DNA from: Sporobolomyces roseus | Taxonomy: Eukaryota > Basidiomycota > Microbotryomycetes > Sporidiobolales > Sporidiobolaceae | DNA: 64,000 nt | Direction of reading: 5' to 3' | Assembly: GCA_016617785.1 (NCBI GenBank) | Contig: JADILM010000001.1 | Location: 2,232,001-2,296,000 of the forward strand | In this document: one piece after another, positions 4 to 21,460 of the stretch | Numbering within the stretch: position 1 is the first letter of the stretch | Layout of the letters: each line of letters opens with the position of its first letter | Position numbers and translations under genes: made by a program | The notes under the pieces: generated by a model | What the model was told of the DNA's origin: nothing | What the model saw: only the letters and a program-made list of their open reading frames with translations | Databases searched by the model: none

Positions 4-2622
4 CTCACTCGACTTGCGAATCTTTGACAGCTCTCTCCTCTCTGACTCCCTTTGTCGCCAGCTTTCTCCTCACCTACATGGTCTTCACTCCCTTTGTCAC
101 TTATCCCTCGATATCATATCTTGTCACGAATAGTCTCTACTTCTCTCTCCCTTGAATCAGGACCAGAATTGTCGAATGTTGCGAAACAAAAAAAGTCATC
201 TTTCCCTCTACTAGATCGCGCTCGAGAGAGGCCGAGTCGTAACTCCGAGAATGATATCTCCCGAGAGTGAGAAACACTTCGACTGAACTTAACGAAATTT
301 CAAACTTGTGCGAATTTCAACTTTCGACCTTTCACCAAATCTTGACAACTCGACTCATGCCATGAATGGATGGTACCAGAAGGACTATCCTACCCCTGAA
401 TCATCACCAGAAGTCAAACAAGAATCACCTGAAGCTTCCTCGTCAATCTCTTTTCCCACTTCTTTCAACTTCGATTCTCCTTCTTCTCCTCTCGAATCAG
501 CACTCGTACGGTACTCGAATGGACTACAGATCAAGAGTGAACGTCTAGCAAAGCGTACTACACCTTGTCAGCAGTGTAGGAGGATTAGGAGAGCTTGTAA
601 ATGGATCGAAGGAGATCAAGATTGTGAGAGGTGTGGGAAACTAGGCAAAGCGTGTACTGGTCCTACTCGGTGAGCATTCTATTCTCTTGCGAGTCATGTC
701 TCTGGCAGTGTGAGCTGATTCCCGCATTCGAATGTAGACGTTCGAAATCGATTCTCGAATTGGTTCGTCCCGCTCAACAGCAGCAACAGCAGCATTCGAT
801 AGTCGTCGCAGCGATTGGACCTTCTTCGCCCGAATCGAGGTGGTCGACATTGCACATGTCGTATTCTCTTACCTATCATCTCGTCGAGAGTAAGGCTTCG
901 TTCCCTCGATTTTTGTTCGAAGCTCGCCTGACTCTGATCACTCTTCCCCAAGCTAGCCGGTCTCGAGTTCCTCGCCGACGGCTTCGTATACGACGGCTTC
1001 GACTACAAGTTCTTCTACTCGCGGCTCCAGGAGTCAAGAGGAAGACTAGACGAAATCGATTCGGTTGATCAAGTACGTCGACTTGCTTCTCATTTGATCC
1101 GGTCTGGGAGCTCACACTTCGGACATTGTCTAGCTATTCGCTATGGCACAGATGATCGCCGGATCTCACTCTACGACACACTCCGTGAGCACTCCCTCGA
1201 ATTCACCTGTCCTGAATCGTCTCATCTGACTCTCTTTCGCTTCTCAGGCCTTCCTGCAAACTCGAGCACCGGTCACTGATTTGGACTCTCTCGATTTCGA
1301 ACGATCCGATCCGTCTGGCTGGACCGAGATTGGACTCGCACGAAGGAATCCGCTTCTCGCCGTTACTCGTCAAATCGCCGAAAGCCTCAACTCACAGTCT
1401 CTCGAGCACGATCCTCATCAGCTCGCGACCGAGAGACTATCGGTATCCCTCTTCGCCCTCCGGTTCATATCGGATCTACAAGAGTTCGCCCCGGAACAAT
1501 TGCTTCTTCTGCAGGATGCCGTTCGCAAAGGGCTCGACTACTTGGCACGAGCAGGAGCGACGATCTCTCACGCTGACTATGAGTCCTTCTCTCTTCCCCT
1601 GCGAGAAATAGCTGTAAGCTCCATTCCTCTTTCCGACTCTCGCTGAGGAAGCACAAGCTTACCTACCCCGTCTATTAGCGAGAAGCAGTTCGTGTCGCGC
1701 TCGTACTCGATGTACCAACGACGATGTATGTAACCTTTTCGCGGACATGAAGAGCTCGAACGACACGACGAGACTGAACTTCGTCGATTTTCCAGTTCTC
1801 CGGCAGAGTATCACCTGCTCTTTGGCAATTTTCGACCATTAGACATTCCTCCTGTTCCCGAAGATATATCCTACATCTTCAGTATGCCTCCAGAGTCGCC
1901 TGAGACTCGCGATCTCGCTTTCGCCTTTCAAGATTATTGGATTCCCTTTCCTCTCCCAATCTACTGTCATCTTGAACGACTCCTCACCTACACTCCAGTA
2001 CAACACCTCTCAGCGTCCGTTCAGTACTGCTGGAAGACACTCGAAGAGATCACAAGTCAGCTCGCAGAGATGATCGCCAAAATCTTGAGCGATCCTCGCT
2101 ATAGAAAGGAGGATCCAAAACCTCGACCGAAAGTTTGCCTCGGTAATCTAGTCCAGATCGAATCCGACGCTCTCTTTTTACTCAAAAGCTGTCATAACGC
2201 TGTAACTCGGAGCGCTTCTACCGTCAAACTCTTCAGCAGATCGGAGAAGTTATGGTTTGCGGCGCTTACTCGCAGTGCGGAACGATTCGCAATCCTCCCT
2301 GTATGTTCACCTCAGACGTTCATCCTTCCATTTGGTGTTATTGACACGAAATCCACAGAATTTCTGCAGGTCTCGTCCTTTATTGCACGCGGCTTGCGCC
2401 GATTTTGTCGAGCGGCTTCGTCTCTGTCCGAGTTCTATCCTCGTTCAGTGGTCTTCACTCTTTTCGAATGATCGAGATCGGTGCGCTGGTTTCTCTCGAT
2501 TTAGATTCTCGCTCGCTAACGAAAAGCGCCTTCACAGCTTGATCGCCTCGCTTCGTTTCGTCAGTCACGGCATGCCCGATGCGTGTCGCCTCATACGGAT
2601 GCTCGAGACGACAGCGACATAG
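4..2622 (+). repeat. Left arm of a large inverted duplication
   Basis: The first bases of the window, read forward, match the reverse complement ending near 18042. The match covers the 5' flank, the Zn-cluster exon and, at lower identity, the rest of the factor gene down to its stop. The partner arm is 15406-18042 on the other strand. The true left limit is not visible because the arm runs to the window edge. Confidence 0.75.
362..2622 (+). CDS. Zn(II)2Cys6 transcription factor, copy 1
   Basis: Predicted fungal binuclear zinc-cluster regulator. The first exon (362-669) encodes an acidic Ser/Pro-rich head and then C69-x2-C72-x6-C79-x8-C88-x2-C91-x6-C98, the classical Zn2Cys6 DNA-binding pattern, with an RRIRRACK basic stretch. 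Exon 2 starts at 738 and carries a short polyglutamine run, then a conserved stretch with the words GPSSPESRW and HMSYSLTYHL. Further exons follow, separated by short introns with CTGAC branch points; the last exon ends CRLIRMLETTAT and stops at 2620-2622. I chose the ATG at 362 because the frame upstream has no other ATG. The C-terminal region is shared with copies 2 and 3 but I do not recognise it as a named domain. Target genes are unknown. The protein should act in the nucleus. Confidence 0.85.
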
Positions 2623-2975: not shown

Positions 2976-5900
2976 CTACCACGAAGTTCGACCGAATCCT
3001 TCGGGAGGCGGCGTCTTGTACGAAACATCAGCCCAGTCAAGAGTCTTTGTAAATACCTCGTTTCCCCACCAGTTGAGAGCTGAAGAAATGCTTGAGAATC
3101 AGCTCGAGAAATGGCGAAGAAAAGAGGAGGGAACCGAAATACCAATTGTTCCGTCCTTTGGCAGAGAGAGAGTGAGGAAGATGAAGATCCCACTCATCAC
3201 CGTGCCAGAATCGAGTCCGGCGGATAGGACAAAGTTGAATTTCGACCACCATCGGAATTGACGGCGACGAAGAAGATACTCTGTCGAGACGGGAAGAGCG
3301 GCGTGAGGCAAGAAGAGAGGAAGAAGGATTGCGGTTACATACGGAAGATGAATCCGACAAGGAACCAAGACGAGAAGTTGATGCCCGTCGCGGGCGGCAT
3401 CAGTATCGCGCCCGTTAGAGCGACCGGTACATTCACATACTGCCAAAAGGAGCTTGGGTACCTTTTGGTGAGAGTCCAAGTGAGAAATGGGAGGACTGCG
3501 CCGACAAGGAGCCAATAGAGGATTGCGTTGTACTCCTTTCCTATACCGAATTGTCGAGCCGGACCGATCAAACCCCTGATCAACCAATCACATCAGCCAG
3601 CAACGGCATGCAATCTTGTGAGGAGACGTACCAGATGACTGAGGCTGAATAGAATACACGAACATTCGGACAAGTCAGGAAAGCAGCTTGTCGAGGTTCG
3701 CAAAGATCGGATACGACGCTAACGAGCCACCTTTTCACTCCGACTTGCACAAACGATGTCACTACTGTTGCGACAATTTGTACTGGATTTACGGAAATCA
3801 TTAGCTATTTGCGGCGGCAAGTTTGTGCAAGAGCGTACCTGAGAAAGTTGCGCGAGGAGGGATTTTCATGTAGTGGCCGAGCTTGAGATCCTGCACGAAT
3901 GTTAGTCCTGTCGTAAGAGTTTGTGTGGCGTAGCATTTGAAGAGCTGTTGTTGAGGGATGACGGATCAGTAATGAGCTCGCTTAGAATGTGTAAATGGTT
4001 ACAAATCGCAACTCACCATGTTGGCAATTGGCTGTCCTGGGATAATGTATCCGGCAATGAGCTCGACAATCAAGTTGATCGATATCTGCGGAACAATCCA
4101 GTCAGCAGATGCGTCGGGAAAGTCTTTATTAGTGCGCACCTGAGTACTTGTCATCCCGAAAACAATACCGCCTGGCACAATGTAGATCACACCAACAATT
4201 AGAGCAACTATCAGCGACCAGACAGGCATTCGGGTGTCGAAACCCTACAGAAAAGCAAGAAATCAGAAAGATCACGGGCGTAGAGGAAAAAAGAAGATTG
4301 TTACGGACCGCAACACACGCAATAGACAGACCAGAAGCCACCATCAGGAAAACCATGTACCACCAATCAGGTACCTCCGGATAATTCTTCATCAACTTCA
4401 TGTGTACATCCTCGTCACCGTTTCTGACTCGTCGTAATTGATCAAGGATGGTCCGACCGTTGTAGAGTAAAGTGTGAACAATGACAGCAGTGGAGAGCAT
4501 AAACGCAACTCCGTAGACTGTGGCGTAGGTGATGGGCAAGTAGAGGGGGGAATACTCTTGATATGCGGTTTCATTGAGAGCAAGGTTTATCGGATCAACA
4601 ACTGCGGTCGAGTTGTAGGGGGAGCCGAAGCGATCGAATACTTGTGACGTTGACATCGGAAGGTAGGCTGAATCCCAGACCTATTGAGAGGCGTGGACAA
4701 AGTCAGCAAAGGTCTCATCTTGCGAAAGAAAATGGGACACGAACGTTGAGGTAATACATAATCGGAGCTATGAGCCAGAACGCCAGAGCAAATCCGACAA
4801 AGATATTGACCTCAGCCCACCACGGAACGACAAGAGGAGATCCGAGATAAGCGATTTGACCCCAGTCGAAGGTGAAGATTCCCATTCCGAGTCCCGACGA
4901 AACTCCGAAAAGTTGGTTGACAACGACGTTGTCTGCTCGCGAGAGCGTAAGTAGCGGTCATCGGTAAGACGGAAGAGAAAAAGAGCTCACTTGGTGCGAT
5001 CCAGCAGACCCACGAGAAGGCGGAAAGTCCGACGAAGAGAAAACCTGTGACGAAAGAATTCGTTAGTGATTGAGTCCGCCGGGAAGAGAGCTGAGCTGTC
5101 GAAACTTACCAGGTAACCAATACCACGCAAATGCGCCAGCAAAAACATAGAGAAAGAAGCGAAATCGAGTGGTACCTCCTGAGCGATCATCGTCCTCGGC
5201 ATGGAGCGTATTGAGTAGGGTGCAGAAGACGAGATTCTGCGGCCAGATGAGAGCGGCTGGCCAGACTAGGAACCTCCGACATAGTCCCGCAATGCCGAAT
5301 CCAATCATTTGAGTTGTCATCACGATCAGAATGTCGAAACCGGGAGTTTGTGGGATGCCGTAGAACTTCTCGGCAGCGAGACTGAGATTTACTCCGTACG
5401 AAGGCGCAGTTGAGACGTTTGCCATGATGACGAGGAGAGTGTGTTCTTTGATGTTGAAAGGTCCGGGGTTGAGGCTGAACTCGTCGGGCAACCCGATTCG
5501 TCTTGCCCAAGCAGGAAACCTCCATATCGTGATCGGGAGATATCGAGCTAGGAGTTTACCGACGGGGTACGAGAGGATTTGAGTAATCACGGGTGTGAGT
5601 AGAGGTGCTGGGTATCGCAAGTTGAAGAAAAGGTTGAGAGCGGAAATGATGATGCAGAAGGATAATCCGATGGCCCAGACACGGAATGTGAGGACGGGCA
5701 TCTCGGGATCGTCGATATTTGATACGCTTGCTCGCACTTCGGGATAAGGTGAGTCCTCCTCCTCCTCCTCCTCAAATTCCGGTTCGAGTCGATAAGGAAC
5801 GTAATCGCTGACTCCCATATCCGCCAACATCTTCTGCTCCCTGCTCGTAGCTAATCGAATCGGTTCTCCCATCTCATTCAGCATAATCGCTTGTCCATCC

Positions 5901-6484
5901 GGTGTGAGAGCGTACGAGACGTTCTGCTGATCTGCCCAACTCGAATCGATCGAATCGAGAGCCTCGATTTTGTCGCGAGAACTCTGAGTACTTGATCGCC
6001 GTAGCTCCTCCTGTCTGAGACGTTCCTCGTAAGGGTTTCCGACGATGTAAGAGGGACTGTCGGGAGCGGAGAAGGAAGTTCGTTTGCGAGGACCAGAGGG
6101 TGAGGAATAATTGGAAAGAGCGTAAGCGGCGGCAGGGGAGAGAACGGGATCGGAAGTGGCGGCAGTAGGAGGAACAGAAGGATAAGAGGGATCTGGCGAG
6201 AAGTTCGAGTTTTCGGGAAGAGTGGGAAGTGCGAAACTGAAAGGATTCGAGGTGAGGTTGTCGTTCGAGGGAAAGGAATGGGAAGGAGGTCGATGCGAGT
6301 GGGATGGGTTGGTCGAGTACGAGTGCTGTTCTCCAGTAGTAGGTCTAGCGAATGAGAACATCCCTGGATCATCGTCGTCTTCGTCGTAGTCCTCCTCACT
6401 CCATCGCTGAGATTCGCTGCCAGCCGTTCGAGGGACAGCTGTTCGTGGTCTACCATCACTGGTGCTAGTTGCGCGTGATGCCAT
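2976..6484 (-). CDS. OPT family oligopeptide transporter
   Basis: Predicted plasma-membrane proton-coupled importer of small peptides. The N-terminal 250 or so residues are hydrophilic, Ser/Pro-rich and acidic. Then come many membrane segments interrupted by introns. Family hallmarks are visible: the NPGPFNIKEHTLL motif, the LCRRFLVWPAALIWPQNL stretch near the first membrane segments, and near the C-terminus NVPVALTGAILMPPATG, FVLSAGLDSGTVMSGIFIF and LNWWGNEVFTKTLDWADV. The last two introns (GTATGT...ACAG and GTATTT...TCAG) must be removed to join these segments. The stop is at 2976-2978. The ATG at 6484 begins MASRATSTSDGR. A further intron seems to lie in the 5' UTR near 6630. The gene lies about 650 bp downstream of the secreted-peptide gene on the same strand. 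The substrate cannot be told from sequence. Confidence 0.92.
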
Positions 6485-7135
6485 CTCCTCTACCGATACC
6501 TAGGACTGTTTATTCGAATCATCAGCATCCCTCCCGTTCGAAGCAAAGTGAACCTCGGAGGGCAATCCGAGAGCGGGAAACGGCGCAGATCCCACTTGAT
6601 CAAGTTCGAGAAATCGGTAGAGTACTCACCTAGTATGTGAAGGCTTGTAGCGAGATTGACGAGATGTAGAGGAGGCGGCTTCAATCGTTTGAAGCCAGAG
6701 CCGAGATGAAGCGAAACTGTAGGAGATTGTCCTTGTTGAGAGCTGAATGTTGGCGTGTACAGCTGAAGAAATAGCGTAGCACAGGTTGTGGGAGCTGAAA
6801 GAGGGAAGGTGTAGAATTCGGAGAAGGCTGGACTTCAGCTTTCGTTTCTTTGGCTCAGCAGATCATACAGCACCGAGCTGTTTGTGAAGAACTTTGTTGC
6901 GGATGGAGGACCGGAAACAGCTGCGCGGAATCTGTCGAGGTCTCAAAACTCGATTTCTCGAACCTGATCTCGCGAGGGAAGCAATAAGGCTGACACAGGA
7001 GTATCGGCGCGAGGTCTAGGCATGGCTTCGACGAACAACGACATTACAGAACACAGCGGAGCAAGTGCTCCGAAAAAACGGCAAGAAGGCAACAGGGAGA
7101 ATTCCAGGGAAGGCAGAAGGATTCTGAGCGGGCGA
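6485..7135. other. Intergenic between peptide-precursor gene and OPT gene
   Basis: Contains the 3' UTR of the peptide precursor and the promoter and 5' UTR of the OPT gene, both on the minus strand. A GTGAGT donor on the minus strand near 6628 suggests a leader intron. I see no coding region. Confidence 0.45.
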
Positions 7136-8374
7136 TCAAGATGAGGGATCGAGGGCCCCGGCGACAGGTTGTACACCCCAGCCTCGCTCCTCGAGCTGTA
7201 CGGTAGTTGGGCAGCGTCAGTCTATGATGCGAGATCACAAAACGAAATCTTGGAAGCTCACCGAACGTTTAGCGGTGGGATCGTCTGAACTGGCGACAGC
7301 TTGACGGGCCCAACCTCGCTCCTCGAGCTGCACGGTAGTTGGGAAGCGTCAGTCTATGATGCGAGAGCACAAAACGAAATCTTGGAAGCTCACCGAACGT
7401 TTAGCGGTGGGATCGTCTGAACTGGCGACAGCTTGACGGGCCCAACCTCGCTCCTCGAGCTGCACGGTAGTTGGGAAGCGTCAGTCTATGATGCGAGAGC
7501 ACAAAACGAAATCTTGGAAGCTCACCGAACGTTTAGCGGTGGGATCGTTTGAACTGGCGACAGCTTGACGGGCCCAACCTCGCTCCTCGAGCTGCACGGT
7601 AGTTGGGCAGCGTCAGTCTATGATGCGAGATCACAAAACGAAATCTTGGAAGCTCACCGAACGTTTAGCGGTGGGATCGTCTGAACTGGCGACAGCTTGA
7701 CGGGCCCAACCTCGCTCCTCGAGCTGCACGGTAGTTGGGAAGCGTCAGTCTATGATGCGAGAGCACAAAACGAAATCTTGGAAGCTCACCGAACGTTTAG
7801 CGGTGGGATCGTTTGAACTGGCGACAGCTTGACGAGCCCAGCCTCGCTCCTCGAGCTGTACGGTAGTTGGGCAGCGTCAGTCTATGATGCGAGATCACAA
7901 AACGAAATCTTGGAAGCTCACCGAACGTTTAGCGGTGGGATCGTCTGAACTGGCGACAGCTTGACGGGCCCAACCTCGCTCCTCAAGCTGCACGGTAGTT
8001 GGGCAGCGTCAGTCTATGATGCGAGATCACAAAACGAAATCTTGGAAGCTCACCGAACGTTTAGCGGTGGGATCGTCTGAACTGGCGACAGCTTGACGGG
8101 CCCAACCTCGCTCCTCAAGCTGTACCGTGCAATCGTCAGTCAGTGCCGGTTCTACTAGTTAACGACAAGCTAACGACAAGAGTCGACTTACTTCACGCTT
8201 GACGGCTTCGCCCTCAGTGCCGAAGTTGATCTATTTCAAGGGGATGGAAATCAGCTAAAGGTCAGGAACGACAGAATTCGGTGACGATTGACTCACAGCA
8301 CGCCTTTCTCCGGCGGGAGCAGCAGTGGCTACAGCAGCAGTAGCAGCGATAACGGCGATGAGAGTGAACTTCAT
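7136..8374 (-). CDS. Secreted Kex2-processed repeat peptide precursor
   Basis: Ten-exon gene, 212 residues by my splicing, not recognised as a named family. Exon 1 (8297-8374) gives a signal peptide, MKFTLIAVIAATAAVATAAP, then AGERRA. Exon 2 (8192-8230) gives INFGTEGEAVKRE. Seven 66-nt exons follow (8054-8119, 7922-7987, 7790-7855, 7658-7723, 7526-7591, 7394-7459, 7262-7327), each starting LEERGWARQAVASS and ending DPTAKRS with D or N between. Exon 10 (7136-7195) gives a diverged unit without KR, ending DPSS and stop. All introns are phase 0; the repeat introns are 66 nt with GTGAGC, CTGAC and GTGCAG/GTACAG. KR sites are expected Kex2 cleavage points in the Golgi, releasing peptides that begin S-LEERGW. 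There is no C-terminal CAAX. It resembles in plan the fungal KEX2-processed repeat proteins, which include alpha-type pheromones, Ustilago Rep1 and dikaritin precursors. Its function is unknown. Confidence 0.9.
7182..8123 (-). repeat. 132-bp tandem array, about 7.1 copies (exon + intron unit)
   Basis: The same 14-base block CCTCGCTCCTCRAG occurs at 7182, 7314, 7446, 7578, 7710, 7842, 7974 and 8106, a constant step of 132. Each unit is one 66-nt exon plus one 66-nt intron of the minus-strand peptide gene. Differences between copies are few: two intron types (gggcagcg with gatcac, or gggaagcg with gagcac), synonymous changes near GWAR, and a C/T change that swaps Asp for Asn in two exons. Confidence 0.97.
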
Positions 8375-8480
8375 GTTGATGTGACGATCTGAATTCGTGA
8401 AAGGGGTTCGTGAAGCGAGGGTCGTAAAAGGAGGTTGACTTGAGAGAAGAGTCGTGAGGCGAGTCGCTAGTTGCCTTTCG

Positions 8481-8488
8481 TTATAATA
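8481..8488 (-). promoter_or_regulatory. Candidate TATA element of the peptide-precursor gene
   Basis: On the minus strand the sequence reads TATTATAA, about 107 bp upstream of the ATG at 8374, in an otherwise mixed-composition region. The position is plausible for a strongly expressed secreted product. It is a short motif and could be chance. Confidence 0.35.
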
Positions 8489-10070
8489 GGTCGTAAAGTC
8501 GTGAACGTGATCGAGTTTGAGGTGTGAAGAAAGTGTGGAAAGAAGCAAGAGGCAAGAGGTTCAAGTCGAAATCGGTCTGGCGAGTTTCTTCTTCTTCTCT
8601 TCTCCCCCTTTTGACAAAAAAATCGAGTGGAGGGGTCAAGGAAAAAGGCGCGGCCACGCTGTCTATTGTCTCGTAAACGAGATGACACGGAGATTTGCTT
8701 GGGGGATCAAAGTCCTTTGACCAAAGCCCCGTCAACGTCAACGGCATGAAGTAAACTCTAAGGTTGTTTCGCGCTTGCATGCCGGCACCTTGTTACTTTT
8801 TTCATTCCGACTGCTGTGCAAACTGCACTTCAAGTGATTCGGTCCGTTCCTCGAGGAGGCAGAGACATTTAGCAACGCGTCCTTTGCATTTCGTGATTCA
8901 ACATTTCAATTTTTTCACTCTTTCCAATGTTTCATCCCTAACCGAAGCGATCGCCTTCATCCCCTTATCGCTGATTGAGCCCGTAACAAAGTTGTTCTGC
9001 CACTACAGTACAGAAAGTACCGAACTGCCGACACGAAAGCGAGCGCCTCTCTCTTTCGTGCGAAAGGTCTGTTGCCGATTCCTTCTCGACCTCGACTGCG
9101 TTCTATTGTCGACTCTGAACAAGCTTCTCCTTTGTTCGTTATGTACATTCTGTTCGAAATGTGATCTTGTCGAGAGTGCCGTCGGCATCAGTTCCGTCCT
9201 TTACGATCGAAGCTGGGGAACAATCATCAGTTTTTTGACACTGTTCTTTTCGATCTGCTTCTTCGGCGTCAGTGCCAATAGTCTTGCTCTCGTCCGGCAC
9301 CCTGACCATGTGGGAACAAGAGAGTCGTGGAACCCGTCAACGAGAGATGAAGTGATCGCAATCTGTTCATCATCGTCAGAAAGTGCTCACTCAGCTCGAC
9401 TCTCAGAATCTGTCGCCGTCATCTCCTTGCATCACATACGAGTCAATTGACGATCTTCTCGCACAAAGGCAAGCTTTGCCAACCTGGAGCCTTAGGTCTC
9501 TCGACGAAAGCTTAACTTTGATCTCCCGCAAAGAACGGATCTCGAATTTGCGAGTCTGCGTCGATTCGTTCGAGAACCTGTCTCCTATGCCCAGTGCCTA
9601 GCGAGGCTTCGACTTTCTCGATGAGTCTGCGTACAAACCTTGTACGGAGTTTGTCGTACGTGGATCCCGGCGAAGAATCTGAAATGTTGCAGACAAAGAA
9701 TGAGTCGTCAATCTGCACTCGGCTCGGTGAAGATCTCATCGTGCGTGCCTCTGAGCGACGGTGTCTCCAACGAGTGCCGGAAGCGAACCACGAGCCTGCG
9801 AAAGTAAAGGAGGAGCAGATTCGATCGAATTCAAACAAGACAGCAGATACCTCGAGCTCGCACGACTCTGATCTGAGAGCAGTGCTGATTCAATCAGAGC
9901 CTGTACGACGTTCTCGAAGATTGATGCTTCCAGAGGAACAGTGCAAGATAGTTCGTCAAACTTGCGAAAACTTGCGAAAACTTGCGAAGGTTTTGTGTGT
10001 GATGAACTGCTTTCAAGAGAGACAGTTCGTGGTAACAAGCTACAAAGATCCGATGCTAGACGAGCTCATC
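8489..10070. other. Long intergenic without a supported gene
   Basis: About 1.6 kb between the peptide gene promoter and the SPT16 stop. It holds a 228-codon open frame (8764-9450, +) and a 189-codon frame (9594-10163, +) that runs into SPT16. Neither has a recognisable domain, and I could not find a convincing splice chain linking them. The proximal part must contain the promoter of the peptide gene. An unusual small gene here cannot be excluded. Confidence 0.4.
9961..9990. repeat. Three 10-bp direct repeats
   Basis: CTTGCGAAAA occurs at 9961 and 9971 and is followed by CTTGCGAAGG at 9981, just downstream of the SPT16 stop (in transcript terms). Role unknown. Confidence 0.7.
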
Positions 10071-13000
10071 TCATCTCTTTCCTTTACTCTTGCTCTTACT
10101 CTTCTTCCCTCTGTCGTCGTCCGAGCTATCTCCCCTAGACTTGCTTTGCTCCTTCGAAGCTAACCTTTCCTCTGCATCTGACCAATCCTCTCCTTCATCC
10201 GAGAGATCAGCTTCCGCATCAGAGTCTGACTCTGAAGCATCTGCACTGAACTCTGAAGCGTCTTCTTCGGACTCCTCCTCGAAGACATCACTGTCAGCTT
10301 CGAATTCAGATCCTTCTTCTGATTCACTCGATCCAGCGACCTAGACAAAGCAGAAAGGAGACGAGAAGATCAGCAAGTCGTCATTGAGAGGCTCGTCCGA
10401 GGTGGAAGAAACTCACATCTTCTTGAGCGCTCAGGAAGCTCCACCCTCCTTCCTTGAAGAAGTCGTGAGGGTCTTCGTTTACAGTCTTCATGATCGCTTG
10501 CCAGTTGAGATTGACAGGACCTTCAGAGAACGGAATGTCGACAGAGCTATCAATCGCGAAACGAGGTCGTCGTCAGCTCGGGAAAAGGAATCGGCAACAG
10601 ACAGGAAACGCAGAACTCACTCTAGCCATTCCTTGACGCTGTCAAGCGCATTCATCGGAATCGTATTGATGTGAATGGGTGTTCGAGTGAAATCTTGGAA
10701 GACGAAGACCAAATCGAAGTTCTTCAATCCGTATTGAACACGTTCGAGATGAGCGATTTCGATTTCGTTGAGGGTGACGACGAGGAAAGGAGGTTCGGTA
10801 AGGAAGACGAGAGTATCGGTCGTAGGCTGGAGAAGAACGTTGGAACGGAATGGAACACCTTGGAAACCGAGTTCTCGGAAAGGAATATCGACATCGACTC
10901 GATTGTTCGACTGTTCGAAATCAAGATCTCGTCAGCCCAATCCGGGTTTTGGAACAGATCCTCTAGCTGAGGGAGGAAGGAACGTACAGCTTCAGCAATC
11001 TTGTCGGAGAACGCTTTGAAGTACTTGTTCAAATCGGCCCTTCTCTTTCGCTCATCCTGTTCAGCCTCGAGCTCATCCTCGTCGTGGTAGTTGCGCTTTC
11101 GTTTCTTGTTTCCAGTCTCGTCGAACGAAGCATCGGAGACTTCTCGGAAGAATTGCACGTCCTTTGCTTTCTTCTTGCCGATGATGATGGGACTTTTGAG
11201 GTGAATGTGAATGACGACGATGAGCTCGTTGTCGCAAGGTTGGAAAAGGAGATGTTTGATGTTGCTGAAGAGGATGTCTGTGAACTCGAAGCACAGTCAG
11301 CGAGAGGTTTGTGATGCCCCAATTCGGAAAGGACCTCACCAAGTTTCTGTTCCGACTTGACTGAAGATTGATAGCGAATACCGTTCGAGTGAATTTCGAC
11401 ATCTCCAGTTTGACGCTTACCATCGAATGAAGGGCGCAGTTGGACTTCAGTAAGCTTGATAGGACGCTTGCCTGTTGTGAAGAACTCTTTCGGTCAGTTT
11501 TTCGAAGACGGTGGATCGAGGTGATGTAGGAGAAGTACCTTTGATTTCGACCAGGCGATCCTGCTCTACAACGTCTGCCAGCTCCTTTCGTTCCGTCTCT
11601 CGTTTGACTGCTACCTTCTTCAAATCGTTGATCTCTTTGTGAAGTTCGGCGAAGCGGAAAGAGTCGATAGATCGGTAGGTAATTCCTCGAATGAAGGTAG
11701 CGTTGGGATCTTCGAAAGGCTGTGTAGAGAGCGGATGAGTGTGAACTCATGTCGAGCGAGTCATACATTCGAGAGGGAAACGTACTGTGTCTTCCTTCTT
11801 TCCGGTGATTGCTCCGGGAGTCGTGAACATGAATCGAAGTACAGTGTAATCTCCCTCCTCTTGCTTGATCAAACTCTTAAGAGTGTTGACGTGGAATGGA
11901 ACAGCGAAACCATTGATCGGAAGGACGATGGTCGCGCGACGAGCATCGACGACAATCTGTTCAATTCGCAATTTTCGTCAGCCTTTTTGCGATCTCGACG
12001 CTCACTTCCCGAAGACGATGCTCACCTTTTGCGAAGAGACGGCGTCGGGAAGTTGACTGTCCTTGACGTAAGATTCGAACCTCCTCCATTGTTTCTCCCT
12101 GTTTCCTCCCGTTCCTCCTCCTTCGCCTGAATACTTCTCGAGACCTTCTTCTTGACGGCGAGTTGCGAGTTCCTTTTGATGTTGCTTGCGACGAACAGCT
12201 GCGCTCATGTCGATCTCTCGGTTCTCGTTACGAAGTTTCGACTTGACGACAGCGGTTGCAGCGGGTTTGCGTCGAGAACCATTCTCCTTGTTCGCTTGAG
12301 CTGACTTGGATGGTTTCTTCTCTTCCTCCTATGTTGTTCGAAAGGCGTGAGCATCAGATAGAGTCGACAATGACAGCGGCACTCACCTCCATGTAAAACA
12401 TGACATCGTCTTTCCCTTTCATTCCCTCCGAGAGAATCTTTGATCCGTCCTTGCCAACTTGAACCGTATCGACGAGTGACACGGCGTATCTAGCAAGCGG
12501 AATGTCTCGTCAGCGTGACTCAGATGAGGTCGATAGAAAGAGTGCTCACGTCGCTCCTTTCGAATCGGGAATGCCGTTGAAACCGAGAGTGAGAGAGAAG
12601 ACCATGTCTGTCTTGACAGTGCGAGTTCCTTTCGCTCCGAGAGGATAAGCACCGTCACGGAACTCGAGACCCATCTACGAGTGAGAGGAAGTATCATCAG
12701 TGACGAGAAAAAGGAAATGAGGGAGTGAAACTGAGAACGTACTCCGAATCCAGCAGTCTTGACGAAGTATTGAAGTAGGTCGGGACGATCAGCTTGAATC
12801 TTGTCAACGACCTTCTGATAGAGATCCTTGGCGACGACACCATCCTTGAGTTCGCTGAGAGCGTATTTCTGAAGTTCGACGACGAAAAGGTAGTTCTTCT
12901 CTTGTTGCTATCGAAGAGGAGAGAGTCGAGGCATCAGCACGGCTCTCTCGAGGTGGAGAAGATGGTACGAGACTCACTGCATCGGGATCAATCATGAAGG

Positions 13001-14300
13001 TTCGACCAACGTTACTGCAGTAGGATTTGTAACGGATTCCGAGAGAGCAAAGAATGACTCCTGCTTTGAGACGAGCGTCGTCGGTTTGAGCGGAAGATTT
13101 CAGGTCGTAGTTGCCTCCAGATTGAATGATAGGACTGTAACACCAGTCACCGTATCCTGTCTCGAACTAGACAAGCGAAAACGAGTCAGTTCCGCTTATC
13201 GAGAGTCGGAGAGTAGCGAGATCTCTCGACTTACGCCGTCACCGAGATTGAGTTTCTTCCAGAACTTGGTATCTTCGAGCTTCTGTTCGATCTCTTCTCC
13301 CAATTGTTCATGAGTTACTTTCTTTCCCTCATCGATGTAATTTGACATGGCATCGCTGAAATGGCTCATCAACTTGTTTGTCATGACAGAAGCGTTGCGT
13401 TCGTTTTGCTGCGAGGGGAGATCAACCGGGATTAGTAGGAAAGCTGAGCGAGGACAGAAGTAGAGCGAGAACTCACGAGTTCTTCGCTATCCTTGACTGC
13501 GAGAAGCGTTGAAACGCCGAGAGCGACATCGACCTCCTTGAAATCGGCTTCAGCACCAGCGAGAACCTTCTGCCATTCTTGTACAAACTTTCCAGACATC
13601 TTGTCTTTTGGGAGAGTACCGATTTTGTTCTGTCGAAGATGAAAAGCGTCAAATTCGTGCACCAAATTCGAGCTAGACAAGGAGACTTACGCCATTCCCA
13701 ATGATCTCGATAATCTTCTCGAACTGCTTCTTGTTTTCGGCTTCATCTTTGCTGCGAGTAAGGATTTCGACTTCGATCTTGTCGGAACCGGAGGAAGAGG
13801 TGATGGGTTGAAGGAGTTTCGCTGTATCGGAAAGATGGGTGAGCCAATGTTCGGGGAGATCAGGGAAGAAAAGAATCGTCTCACCTTTCGAAGCGGAAAC
13901 GACAAAGTAAATCTTGCCTTTGCCGAGTAACATCAGAGTGCTCGGGAATTCATAACCGAGAAGATAAGTCTGTCTCCCGAGCCTTTGTCAGCGAAGGTTC
14001 AAACAGTGGAAAACGAGAGAAGCGTACCTGTACTGCACTACCTTTACGGTAAGGGTTCTCCTCATCCGAGTTTCCAGCGACGATGAGCAAGTAATCGATT
14101 TCTCCGAGTGGAGCGGCATCAGCTTCATTCTTCTGTGAACACTCATGAACCGTCAGTCTCAATGCGAAAGAGAGTAGACTCAGAGACTAGCGCACCTGCC
14201 ATTGATCGAACAAACGAGAAGCGCGACGGTGGAAAGTCGAAGCCGAGATAACAACGTCCGACACTGCAGCATCTCCTGAATCAGCACTCGTCACGATCAT
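10071..14300 (-). CDS. SPT16: FACT complex subunit Spt16
   Basis: Histone chaperone of the FACT complex, which disassembles and reassembles nucleosomes around polymerases in the nucleus. The proposed start at 14300 gives [10 protein letters not shown] and then [19 protein letters not shown], the typical beginning of the aminopeptidase-like N-terminal domain. Further along are [20 protein letters not shown], an [18 protein letters not shown] segment and [16 protein letters not shown]. The middle domain carries [36 protein letters not shown] stretch follows [15 protein letters not shown]. The end is the diagnostic acidic tail, rich in [20 protein letters not shown], closed by a basic [11 protein letters not shown] and stop. 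There are more than a dozen short introns. Gene length is as expected for an Spt16 of about 1,000 residues. The start is my choice; the frame just upstream has no better ATG. Confidence 0.93.
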
Positions 14301-15405: not shown

Positions 15406-17669
15406 TCATGTTGCGCACAATTCAAGTAGCCGGATGAGGCGACATGAATCCGGGGATCCGTGACTAACGAAACGAAGCCCATCGATCATTCTGTAATGAG
15501 CAGACTTCATCGATCAGCAGAAAGCGCAACTCGAACCAGAAACCGAGACGTACCTGATTCGATCTGCCTCGAAGAGCAAAGCCCATCGCATGAGAATGTC
15601 GTGCGGACAAGTGCGAAGACGCTCGACGATATAAGCGCAGATTGAGTGTAGATCGATACAAGACCTGCTCAGATGCTGTGGTTATCGTATTAGTAGCGGT
15701 TTGTGGATCCGCAGGTATTATGAACGTACGGGGACGAGTGCGAGTCGCTTCGCGCTACGCGTGAGCGCCGCAAACCAGAGTTTCTCCGATCTCTCGAAGA
15801 GACACGAACCGCATGCACTCCGATGCAACGCGCTGTGACAGCTCTTCAGTAGATAGATCGAGTCGGTTTCCACATGGATGAGGTTGGCTAGGCACGCTCG
15901 CGGTCGAGGTCTCGGATCCTCCTTTCTGTGGCGAGAATCGTTCATGATTTTGTCGATCATCTTTCCGACTTGACTGATGATCTCATCAAGTTTCTCCCAG
16001 CAGTATTGGACTGATGTAAAGAGTCGCTGAGATGGTGTGTAAGCGAGGACTTGTTCGAGGTGGTGGTAGACAGGGAGAGGGAAGATTATCCAGTCATCTT
16101 GAAAGTCGAAGGCGAGTTTCCTAGTTTCGGGCGACTCGGGCGGCAGACTGAAGATGAAGGAGATATCCTCGGGTATCGAGGGGATAGTCGGAAGTTGTTT
16201 GGTGCCGAAAAGGCGATGGTACTCGCTCGGAAAGCTGGAGCACAAATCAGATCAGCTTCACATTCAGGTTCTCCGGCGCTGTGAGACAGACCAACAGAGT
16301 AGTCGGTACGTCGAGTACAAGCGCGAGACGTATCTCGATGCGCTATATCAGAAACGAGAGGCTTCGTCACCTCGTGCTAGCAAAGGAGTGAAAGAAACAG
16401 CGCTCACCGCTATTTCTTGCAAAGGTAGGCAGAACGATTCCACTTCGCTCAACACCATCTTGGCACCTTCGCGCAGCAGATAGTCGATACCCCGCCGCAT
16501 CAGAGTCTGCAGAAGGCGTAATTGTTCCGTCGCACACTCTTGAAGATCTCCGAGCCAACGGACCGCGAAGAGGCATACCGATAACCTTTCAGTAGCAATC
16601 CGATGGCTGTCAGAATCGAAAGATTGCAGCTCCAGGATTTCGGCGACGTGACGAATGACAGAGAGCAGCGGGTGCCGTCTCGCAAATCCGATTTCGGTCC
16701 AGCTCGTCGGAGCGGGGAATTTGAGATCGAGAGACTGTAAATCATTGACGGAGGAGCGGGAGCGTAGGAAAGCCTTGGTTGCGAGCGCGTCAGTTGCGAA
16801 GCGCCGAAAGAGACGAAACCGATCACAGTGGCTGGGAGATGACCTCTTACAGAATGAGCTGTTGAGTGCGAGCCGACGATCATCTGCGATAAAGCGAAGG
16901 CCTGATGTTCGGACGACGATGAGTGGGATCAGGAGCAGCGTAGATTCAGTCAACTCACTTGATCGACCAAATCAATCTCATCTAGCCTTCCTCCAGAATC
17001 TTGTGGCCGCGAGCGAAAGTGCCCGTAATCGAAGGCATCGTGGACAAAGCCTGCGGCATGGAACTCCAGACCGGCTAGCTTGGGGAAGAGAAAGCATGGT
17101 CAGGCGAGCTTCGAACAGAATCGAGGGAACGAAGCCTTACTCTCGACGAGGTGATAGGTAAGGGAGTACGACATGTGCAATGCCGGCCACCTCGACTCGG
17201 GCGAAGAAGGTCCAATCGCAGCGACGATTGTCGAGTGCTGCTGTTGCTGTTGAGCGGGACGAACCAATTCGAGAGTCGATTTCGAACGTCTACATTCGAA
17301 TGCGGGAATCAGCTCACACTGCGAGAGACATGACTCGTAAGATGATAGATAGAATGCTCACCGAGTAGGACCAGTACATTCTTTGCCTAGTTTCCCACAC
17401 CTCTCACAATCTTGATCTCCTTCGATCCATTTACAAGCTCTCCTAATCCTCCTGCACTGCTGACAAGGTGTAGTACGCTTTGCTAGAGGTTCACTCTTGA
17501 TCTGTAGTCCATTCGAGTACCGTACGAGTGCTGATTCGAGAGGAGAAGAGGGAGAATCGAAGTTGAAAGAAGTGGGAGAAGAGATTGACGAGGAAGCTTC
17601 AGGTGATTCTTGTTTGACTTCTGGTGATGATTCAGGTGTAGGATAGTCCTTCTGGTACCATTCATTCAT
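15406..17669 (-). CDS. Zn(II)2Cys6 transcription factor, copy 2
   Basis: Inverted paralogue of the factor at 362-2622 with the same exon plan. The ATG at 17669 begins MNEWYQKDYPTPESSPE. The Zn2Cys6 motif is intact in CQQCRRIRRACKWIEGDQDC followed by ERCGKLGKEC. In the 103-residue first exon I count about four substitutions against copy 1. Later exons keep the shared core, for example LPPESPETRKLAFDFQDDW against copy 1 MPPESPETRDLAFAFQDYW, and SVQYCWEKLDEI against SVQYCWKTLEEI. The last exon reads MIDGLRFVSHGSPDSCRLIR and ends LLELCAT before the stop at 15406-15408. All exon junctions I checked are open, so the gene looks functional. The regulated genes are unknown. Confidence 0.85.
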
Positions 17670-18042
17670 GGCATGAGTCGAGTTGTGAAGATTCGGTGAA
17701 AGGTCGAAAGTTGAAATTCGCACAACTTGGAATTTCGCAGTGACATTTTCGCTTGAACCCAAGTCATTCCTTTCTCGCTTGGAGGAGACAACACCCTTGG
17801 AGTTACGACTCGGTCTCTCAAAAGCGAGATTCGGTAGAGGGAAAGATAACTATTTTGTTTCGCAACATTCGACAATTCTGGTACTGATTCAAGGGAGAGA
17901 GAGAAGTAGAGACTATTCGTGACAAGATATGATATCGAGGGATAAGTGACAAAGGGAGTGAAGACCATGTAGGTGAGGAGAAAGCTGGCGACAAAGGGAG
18001 TCAGAGAGGAGAGAGCTGTCAAAGATTCGCAAGTCGAGTGAG
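15406..18042 (-). repeat. Right arm of the inverted duplication
   Basis: Reverse complement of the left arm at 4-2622. Identity is very high in the Zn-cluster exon and in the 150 bases at the outer end (17890-18042), and lower in the later exons. Confidence 0.75.
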
Positions 18043-18382: not shown

Positions 18383-20652
18383 TCATGTTGGTGTAGATGC
18401 AGCTTGACCTTCGAGGATTCGGATGATACGACAAGCGTCTGGCATAGCGTAGCTGACGAAACGTAAACCTTCGATCATTCTAGCGAAAGTGGAAACGCGC
18501 AAGCGAGCGATCAGCTGTGATAGACAGAGAGCAAGGACGAACTTACTTGTCTCTACGAGAGGGATCAGATCTCGCCCATGCTGACAGAATGCTATCGGAG
18601 CAATTGCGGATCTTCTCGACAAAATGTACGCTCGTCATGTACAATCCGTAGTTGTCTTGCCGATGTGTCTATACCGATCTTCAGCTTTGGAGTTCCTGAT
18701 GCGTAGAGGATGGAGCTCACCATAATCAGCGCCAGATAGTCGGAAACAGACCCGAGGCTTGCGAATAATCGTGAACGAGATTGTTCCGAAAGATCGCTGT
18801 CGAATCTGTGGCGTTCGACAAGAAGGTGGCACATCCATAAGGTAGCGAGAATGTTGGTGGCGTCGACCAGGAGATAGTAAATACAGTTGATAGGGCGAGT
18901 CCCGTGCCGGGTGAGTTCGAATCGAGGATCACAATAGATCTTCTTGTAAGCCTGCTCGTAGGTGAAAGCCATTTGATCGAGCTGCAGCCAGCAATATTGT
19001 ACGAGAGTTGGGATGGCCGGGGTCGAGGCAAAGGCGAGGAGATATTCGAGATGTCGAAAAGCGGCACGAAGCGAAGGTATGGTCACAGATTGATAGTCCA
19101 GAGCGAGATTCCACGTATTCGGAAGTGTATTCTTCACGTCGAAGATGAACCAGATGTCGTCCGGGAAGGTGGAAATCATTGACGAGTTTGTCAAGCCGAA
19201 AAGCGAGTGAAAGGTCAAAGGAGAGCTGAAGAATGACAAAGTCAGGACTGGTTCGTAACGGTATCAGAAGGGTACAGGCGAACATAGCAGTGGGTTGACT
19301 GAGAAGGAGAGATTGACGAATCTCCTCGCGCTATCCAGACAATTTTCAGCGTTATCCATGGTAGAGAAGGAAGGCATGAGAACAGCTTACGACTAGCTCT
19401 TTCAGTGGTTCCACCACTTCATCGTCTTGGTTCTCCCTCACTCTCGCTTCGTCTGCCATCGCGATCCATTCAAGTCCCCGGCGTGTGCACAATTGCAGAA
19501 TCCGTAGACGCTCTGGAGCGAATTCGAGTGATTCCCCGAGAAAGACGCAAGCGAAGCCGCAGATGGCGAGACCGTCTACTGCATCCTGTCGTTTTGTGAA
19601 TGGAGTCGCGAGGTATTCTTGCAAGCGATGTACGAGCTGGTCGAGGATGAAGGAAAGCGGCTGGCGTCGAGCGAGACCAAATCCTGACAGGGCTGACGAG
19701 CCTGGTCCGAGTACGGGTACCGTTTCGAAGCGAACCGCTGGAGTCGAGTCTCGTAGGATGCTCTGAGGGGTTTGAGGATCGAGCAATGTCAGCCGATAAT
19801 GCGGAAACGAATTTTATATTTCGACTTACCGTGTGACTCGTACAATGTGCGCCGATGACCATTTGAGATGTAGCGAAGATCTGATTTTCAGAGATTAAGC
19901 GAAGGTCACGGCTGATGAAGGAGCGAGAAGCAGAGGGCTCACATCATCAATCGGATCGAACTGGTCTAGGCGACCTTGAGCAGCTCGAAAGCGAGACAAG
20001 AAAGATGGAAAGTCGAAACCAGCATAGAGCGTACCGTCCGAGTGGTGCAGAGCAGCTGAGCGAGGTGCGGTAGCGGAGGAATCCGTGAGCTCTTCGATTT
20101 CGCAAACCAGAGATGCAAGAACTCACTCTCGACGAGATGATAGGTAAGAGAGTACGACATGTGCAGCGTCGACCACCTCGACTCGGGCGAAGAAGGTCCA
20201 ATCGCCGCGACGACGGTCGAAAGCTGTTGCTGTTGAGCGGGACGAACCAATTCGAGAGTCGATTTCGAACGTCTACATTTGAACGCGGGAATCAGCTCAC
20301 ACTGCGAGAGACATGACTCGTAAGATGATAGATAGAATACTCACCGACTAGGACCAGTACACCCTTTGCCTAGTTTCCCACACCTCTCACAATCTTGATC
20401 TCCTTCGATCCATTTACAAGCTCTCCTAATCCTCCTGCACTGCTGACAAGGTGTAGTACGCTTTACTAGAGGTTCACTCTTGATCTGTAGTCCATTCGAG
20501 TATCGTACGAGAGCTGATTCGAGAGGAGAAGAAGGAGAATCGAAGTTGAAGGAAGTGGGAGGTGAGATTGACGAGGAAGCTTCAGGTGATTCTTGTTTGA
20601 CTTCTGGTGATGATTCAGGCGTAGGATAGTCCTTCTGGTACCATTCATTCAT
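18383..20652 (-). CDS. Zn(II)2Cys6 transcription factor, copy 3 (diverged)
   Basis: Tandem paralogue just upstream of copy 2, on the same strand. The start at 20652 gives MNEWYQKDYPTPESSPE. The zinc cluster is intact in CQQCRRIRRACKWIEGDQDC followed by ERCGKLGKGC. The first exon is nearly identical to copies 1 and 2, and the next exon keeps GPSSPESRWSTLHMSYSL with a shorter glutamine run. The C-terminal two thirds differ strongly: the block matching LAFAFQDYW of copy 1 is LALDYQSVTIPSLRAAFRHL here. The last exon returns to a recognisable GLRFVSYAMPDACRIIRIL and ends ASTPT. The upstream flank is not shared with copies 1 and 2. This looks like an intact gene with changed regulatory specificity. 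Confidence 0.83.
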
Positions 20653-21460
20653 GGCATGAGTCGAGTGGTGACGATTGCTCGAGGTTTGTTGAAACCAAAA
20701 AGTCGTTTGATCTCCTGCGCTCTCCTCTCGACGAACGAATCTGATCTACCGCTCCTGGAGACGCTCGGGCTCATTATCGACCAATGGGCTGTGTTGTAGG
20801 TTTCTCGACAGTCACGCCTCGGCGTTTGCGACCCTCAATCATTGAGTCCATTTCACGGCGGGCAAAAATTAGTCCGCAGCTGCAATTGGAATAGCTTTGG
20901 AATCAAAGTCCATTACTCTTCCAAAATCTGTGAATTAGGCAAATCTAATCAAGCATAATCAAACGTTATCCAGCGGACATATATCGGACTCAGTGTCCGC
21001 GCCCTTATCTGCGGAATAGTTTAGGACATTGATTCCGACATGCAGTTTGGACGAGATTTGGACTTATCTTTGCCCGCCGTGTTTCTTCCACCCTCCAGTG
21101 ATGCGACGGAGGTACTACAGTAGGAGCTGATCGTCCAAGTCGAGTTTCAGCGTCAGGTAGAGCTTGTTGGCCGGGAAACGACAGGATTCCGAGGGGAGTT
21201 TACCCTCGTCGCAAATTCGAGACTGCTCGCTTCGCCTGTTCGATCACAAGCTTCCTGATTGGAGAGCGTACGTGTTGTTTGATTATCGCAGCCCTCGCTG
21301 CGGCTCCAGTCTGTTGTCGCTTCGGAACTCACGCCCACGGAAACGGAGAGTACAGATTCGCTTCGCAAAGTTGATCTCAAGAAAAAGCACGCTTACCCCT
21401 CAACGAGCGGTTCGAGACTCGACTGCCGACGTTACAATACATATTATTCATAGTAGGTAC
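20653..21460. other. Intergenic containing a MITE-like element
   Basis: Separates TF copy 3 from the 3' end of the orphan gene at 21461. The segment 20854-21081 is a short inverted-repeat element, described separately. Nothing else with coding potential was recognised. Confidence 0.5.
20854..21081. mobile_element. MITE-like element, 228 bp, 13-bp perfect TIR
   Basis: The left end CACGGCGGGCAAA (20854-20866) is exactly inverted at the right end (21069-21081). The similarity continues inward with two mismatches, ending in AGTCC on both sides, giving 20 of 22 matching positions. The interior has no coding capacity and holds another small hairpin, GCGGACA at 20973-20979 with TGTCCGC at 20994-21000. 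TTT flanks both ends and might be a target duplication, but it is too short and simple to be convincing. The superfamily is unknown. Confidence 0.6.

Follow-up and report, generated by a model that had tools for sequence, protein, structure and literature searches.

The 64,000-nt window analysed here (Sporobolomyces roseus, assembly GCA_016617785.1, contig JADILM010000001.1, positions 2,232,001 to 2,296,000 of the forward strand) contains a putative peptide-precursor gene that is built around a tandem array of exon-intron units and flanked by SPT16 and by an OPT oligopeptide transporter gene, all three on the minus strand (Table 1). Tandem Repeats Finder detected a 132-bp period over 7177-8122 (7.2 copies, 97% matches, 0% indels, score 1787). 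Read on the minus strand from an ATG at 8374 to 7136, the locus resolves into ten exons and nine phase-0 introns that together give a predicted precursor of 212 residues. Seven of these exons are 66 nt long and each is followed by a 66-nt intron, forming modules; exons beginning with LEERGW start at 8119, 7987, 7855, 7723, 7591, 7459, 7327 and 7195 (n = 8), every step being 132. The gene probably belongs to the Kex2-processed repeat proteins (KEPs), with a separate exon for every repeated peptide, and this degree of confidence covers the gene model and the KEP assignment, the biological role being treated separately.

Table 1. Features of the precursor locus and its neighbours in the window.
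Feature	Position	Strand	Description
Exon 1, 78 nt	8297..8374	-	MKFTLIAVIAATAAVATAAPAGERRA; signal-peptide-like start, ERR + A at end
Intron 1, 66 nt	8231..8296	-	GTGAGT...TAG, CTRAY branch motif
Exon 2, 39 nt	8192..8230	-	INFGTEGEAVKRE, i.e. INFGTEGEAVKR-E; KR + E at end
Intron 2, 72 nt	8120..8191	-	
Exons 3-9, seven x 66 nt, step 132	7262..8119	-	each LEERGWARQAVASS[D/N]DPTAKRS; 66-nt introns between
Intron 9, 66 nt	7196..7261	-	seventh copy of module intron
Exon 10, 60 nt	7136..7195	-	LEERGWGVQPVAGALDPSS*, diverged last unit, without dibasic end; stop at 7136
OPT oligopeptide transporter gene	3174..6484	-	Pfam segments down to 3174; PF03169 E 8.5e-52
Gap between precursor and SPT16	8375..10073	-	presumed promoter region; SPT16 3' end set by eye from open frame
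SPT16 (FACT subunit)	~10074-14000	-	directly upstream of precursor

An earlier sequence-only reading of this DNA had described an eight-unit array at a constant 132-bp step on the minus strand, and both the repeat search and the exon starts confirm it. The same reading had the modules as seven identical copies, every exon as running from LEERGWARQ to TAKRS, and a single signal-peptide exon in front. The modules are in fact only near-identical (125-131 of 132 bases in pairwise comparison, mean 128.9), with four variable sites in the exon and three in the intron, and the repeat unit exists in two protein forms, with D in five of the seven and N in the other two. The LEERGWARQ...TAKRS pattern holds for exons 3-9, whereas the eighth unit reads LEERGWGVQPVAGALDPSS and then stops; the signal-like exon 1 stands, but a second leader exon, INFGTEGEAVKRE (8230-8192), had been missed. 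Module variants are common to non-adjacent modules, and near-identity runs from the acceptor of intron 2 to 19 nt inside exon 10. When the first 57 bases of that exon are compared with module 7, 41 are equal and 16 differ, nearly all of the latter past base 19. This pattern would be consistent with growth and homogenisation of the array by unequal exchange or conversion of the 132-bp exon-plus-intron unit. A weak similarity links intron 2 with the module intron (alignment z ~3.6 against 300 shuffles; ~1.9 for intron 1), as if the cassette had begun as a single exon with its flanking introns.

No open reading frame (ORF) of at least 50 aa with an ATG, GTG or TTG start was found over 7239-8254 on either strand, antisense coding being rejected on this basis, and both representative 132-nt units that were translated contain a stop codon in all six frames. 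A long product could therefore come from the array only if it is spliced. A GTRAG donor, a CTRAY branch motif and a YAG acceptor are present in all nine predicted introns, three of which are independent in sequence. Among the 594 GT..AG stretches of 66 nt in the window, 15 carry donor, branch and acceptor signals together; judged by their features, eight of these belong to the array itself (intron 1 and the seven module introns), leaving a background of 7/586 by subtraction. Two introns of the OPT gene model were scored alike; donor and acceptor are present in both, the branch motif in one.

The exon boundaries also coincide with putative Kex2 boundaries. In all three independent exon types (exon 1, exon 2 and the module exon) a dibasic pair lies exactly one codon upstream of the splice donor: RR in exon 1, KR in exon 2 and KR in each of the seven module exons, with none in exon 10. 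The background rate of [KR]R, taken from eight long ORFs of the window, is 38 in 3894 dipeptides, and the chance that two further exons would agree with the first is ~1e-4, a figure that serves as a guide because the position was spotted after the fact. Each exon would thus encode a single Kex2 product and, in addition, the first residue of the following one. The gene shares with published KEPs its near-identical internal repeats (seven units in two variants) and the dibasic Kex2 sites between them. As a criterion of our own, outside the published KEP definition, we also asked whether the host genome encodes Kex2; it does, S8 and P-domain segments lying at one locus, with a membrane segment at the C-terminus recognised by eye.

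Under this model, the nine introns would be spliced from the pre-mRNA, and the precursor, given its signal-like start (MKFTLIAVIAATAAVATAAPA resembles a signal peptide, judged by eye), would enter the secretory pathway. Kex2 would then cleave after ERR, after VKR and after each AKR, and a Kex1-type carboxypeptidase would remove the KR; the host genome has S10 carboxypeptidases at four loci, none of them identified as Kex1. Nine products are predicted: AINFGTEGEAV and ELEERGWARQAVASSDDPTA once each, SLEERGWARQAVASS[D/N]DPTA six times (four D, two N) and the C-terminal SLEERGWGVQPVAGALDPSS once. Their computed [M+2H]2+ values are 554.2695 for AINFGTEGEAV, 1094.5169 for the E-start form, 1073.5116 for SLEERGWARQAVASSDDPTA, 1073.0196 for the N form and 1028.0107 for the C-terminal peptide. 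All five distinct peptides are acidic (isoelectric point, pI, 4.05-4.68) and contain neither Cys nor Tyr, and the repeated 20-residue unit is hydrophilic (grand average of hydropathy -0.86 to -1.0, pI 4.18-4.68). The precursor interpretation offered by the sequence-only reading is supported in part: in its favour are the signal-like start, phase-0 introns, splice motifs, dibasic ends of exons 1-9 and a genomic Kex2. The word 'identical' was too strong, and exon 10 does not end in KR.

Several observations weigh against a spliced, Kex2-processed precursor. Modules vary as much in the exon as in the intron (on average 1.5 and 1.6 mismatches per 66 nt, respectively), and the 16 differences between exon 10 and module 7 are distributed as 7, 3 and 6 over codon positions 1, 2 and 3, so that with equal exon and intron divergence and no third-position excess no coding-type constraint is visible; a recently homogenised array would likewise look unconstrained. 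Since one of the two OPT introns lacks the branch motif, this motif is not required in the host genome. The pattern KR-X-GTRAG occurs at 274 places genome-wide against 414 for a backwards control and is therefore not enriched. Of these 274 places 100 were listed, from contig 1 and from contig 2 as far as base 2,301,160, and here the gene finds support: its eight sites form the sole group of at least three within 2 kb, the closest other pair (C1:3282043 and 3283308) being separated by 1,265 bases. Moreover, no homologue for a test of selection across species was found in the collections searched, the adjacency to OPT rests on one genome, and knockouts of six Coprinopsis KEPs had no apparent phenotype in the published account (PMC9769878). 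The lack of visible constraint, together with the missing unspliced ORF and the missing homologue, would also suit a non-coding or decayed tandem array lying behind a signal-peptide exon, its modules untranslated. Such an array fits poorly, however, with the retention of length, frame, splice signals and KR in all seven exons, and with an eighth unit that aligns base for base with module 7, in frame, and then stops, and we regard it as very improbable.

On the same side of the balance, a length-greedy gene model picked another frame, with a 285-codon product ending at 6943. This frame, open in all seven module exons, would use a cryptic GTGATC donor and a 43-nt intron in the first module to give LRSEVGPVKLSPVQTIPPLNVR-type repeats to 6943, in a secreted protein left uncut by Kex2. 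Its donor lacks G at position 5, and its intron would be shorter than all nine introns of our model (66-72 nt) and all seven of the OPT model (54-88 nt). Three of the four variable exon sites are synonymous in the frame that we prefer (27% expected, P ~0.06), compared with one of four in the other, where three would turn into amino-acid changes, and the three dibasic exon ends would become coincidence; we regard the length-greedy frame as very improbable. The synonymous sites, the in-frame eighth unit ending in a stop and the dibasic sites support the ten-exon frame as the one that would be translated. Cryptic donors of this kind, each of which would give a 43-nt intron and change the frame, lie at 8030 and at the equivalent positions of the GTGATC module introns; the GTGCTC introns do not have that form.

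Most likely, though we propose it tentatively, the peptides of the Kex2-processed precursor would serve for extracellular signalling among conspecific cells. A real precursor whose peptides act instead at the cell surface, as the Rep1 repellents of Ustilago do, or have a toxic or antimicrobial action appears doubtful, the unit being short (20 residues), acidic and hydrophilic, features that fit neither amphipathic fibril formers nor cationic antimicrobials. The acidic pI and the lack of Cys and Tyr speak against a cationic antimicrobial peptide of the classical type, antimicrobial action having been suggested beside signalling and surface functions when the array was first described. They speak equally against a ustiloxin-type ribosomally synthesised and post-translationally modified peptide (RiPP) cyclised through Tyr. 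The UstYa family (PF11807, DUF3328) had no match in the host genome, a search in which the control genomes were silent as well. A C-terminal CAAX box is a feature of basidiomycete mating pheromones; the precursor ends in LDPSS without such a box, the residues following its dibasic sites are AI, EL or SL and form no XA/XP STE13 signature, and a mating-pheromone reading was rejected on both counts. STE3 is present at one locus of the host genome.

The layout of the array bears on how peptide number could change. Because the module exon is 66 nt, a multiple of three, and all introns are in phase 0, cassettes can be gained or lost without shifting the frame. Any module exon could be skipped without frame change or loss of the remaining cleavage sites, so copy number or skipping would alter mainly peptide dose. 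From this it might be argued that alternative splicing of interchangeable exons is a regulatory device setting peptide number and the reason why the introns were kept. The equal exon lengths, phase-0 junctions and near-identical splice sites of the modules, with skips that keep frame and cleavage sites, are what such a device would need, but the introns may merely be passengers of the duplicated unit, and the proposal seems improbable. Slightly less probable still is the combined idea that the interchangeable cassettes form a frame-safe peptide-dose dial which, with the adjacent OPT gene, constitutes a secretion-and-reimport signalling pair in red yeasts.

The OPT gene begins at an ATG at 6484, 651 bases past the stop codon of the precursor, with a long first-exon ORF at 5063-6484; the length-greedy exon model of its 3' half is unreliable. 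OPT segments mark about six loci genome-wide, as a lower bound. The best-scoring named relatives of the OPT first exon are from S. johnsonii (61% over 93% of the query), S. koalae (71% over 56%) and S. pararoseus (75% over 47%); S. blumeae has 75% over 45%, and one further protein (sources jgi, ena) reached 82% over 100%. Elsewhere in the window, three paralogous genes at ~362-2500 (plus strand), 15721-17849 (minus) and 18386-20745 (minus) share a near-identical start, MN[G/E]WYQKDYPTPESSPEVKQESPEASSSIS, and a motif, CxxCRRIRRACKW, that resembles a Zn2Cys6 cluster. A single N-terminal ORF of these paralogues was tested against Pfam, and its match to the family Zn_clus reached only E 0.037, below the cut-off; two downstream ORFs of the copies matched no Pfam family. 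The host assembly comprises 22.4 Mb in 15 contigs; CTAACC repeats were seen at one of the 15 contig starts, and contig 14 (71,886 bases) has an AT-rich start and is possibly the mitochondrial genome.

Homology searches with the precursor were negative within their scope. Against the protein collection, the full precursor returned ten proteins at E up to 10 from 7995 candidates scored, with a best E of 1.2; nine of the ten carry PF01869 (BadF-type ATPase), and these matches were judged to be due to chance. An 80-aa form containing one module, scored against 18 candidates, had no match with E up to 10. The protein search requires shared 5-residue words, and the gene may be unannotated in relatives; the collection does contain fungal proteins, as the OPT exon found many, including those of several Sporobolomyces species. 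Among the best candidates of a host-genome search only this locus matched, and the prokaryote and viral collections gave 595 and 38 pattern matches, respectively, none of them confirmed. PF22408, PF21789 and PF14555 passed the Pfam cut-off only as whole-protein sums and were judged to be repeat-sum artefacts. Five further Pfam families were below the cut-off, although one of these, PF13670 (PepSY_2), has a single stretch at 4-55 that passes on E-value; none of the eight families was accepted.

If splicing and processing follow the prediction, the unit repeated in a fungal peptide precursor can be a cassette of one exon and one intron, which would provide a simple route for copy-number evolution without risk to the frame and would predict a ladder of isoforms. 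KEP surveys that start from predicted proteins might then miss genes made of many 66-nt exons, and, as micro-exon arrays may escape gene callers, the class may be under-counted. In a basidiomycete yeast, the locus offers a peptide and a transporter neighbourhood that can be tested.

KEPs form a recognised fungal class of great diversity (PMC6339444, PMC7329392), and the precursor resembles those described there in its signal-like start, its tandem near-identical units and the dibasic Kex2 site between units. Peptides of 9-24 residues are reported as the commonest length class in Dikarya, with a tendency to longer ones in yeast-like basidiomycetes, and the 20-residue unit lies within that class (PMC6339444). 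The sequence-only reading had called the exon-per-peptide layout highly unusual, a view borne out in so far as neither 'intron' nor 'exon' appears in the main text of either survey, supplements aside; Sporobolomyces is likewise unnamed in those main texts (PMC6339444, PMC7329392). Like alpha-type pheromone precursors and the alpha-like KEPs of basidiomycetes, the gene is predicted to encode a repeated peptide for release by Kex2 and trimming by Kex1, but it differs from alpha-type precursors in the residues that follow its dibasic sites. Basidiomycete mating pheromones are described as a-type and prenylated (PMC9769878). Coprinopsis cinerea supplies other basidiomycete KEPs, several of which were detected as peptides; most KEP peptides are stated to be of unknown role, and in the passages of that paper no sequence similar to the precursor appears and 'intron' is used only for cDNA cloning, not for gene layout (PMC9769878). 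Kex2-type processing of repeat precursors would also be shared with Ustilago maydis Rep1, Epichloe GigA (epichloecyclins) and the dikaritins; Rep1 peptides are reported to form fibrils and the GigA and ustiloxin/phomopsin cores to be cyclised via Tyr (PMC6374014, PMC9233826), a residue that the present unit, in contrast to GigA and dikaritins, does not contain. Cryptococcus, likewise a basidiomycete yeast, secretes Qsp1; the protease Pqp1 matures this peptide extracellularly, and the transporter Opt1 is involved (PMC7537855). In our case the link to a transporter is genomic adjacency, from which uptake by the neighbouring OPT protein, as for Qsp1, is hypothesised as a possible route. Repeat proteins of Glomeromycotina were considered as a parallel and rejected, their introns being one or two near the signal sequence rather than one per repeat (PMC8786786). 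Judged by titles and abstract openings, the openly licensed papers listed in literature searches, which did not include the original gigA and Rep1 papers, contained no fungal precursor recognisable as having one repeat per exon. Exon-per-copy peptide precursors do exist in animals, for example those of amphibian skin peptides. The kind of gene is thus already known; what sets this one apart from the KEPs surveyed, and is new for fungi as far as we searched, is a layout in which each repeated unit would be a separate exon with its own near-identical intron.
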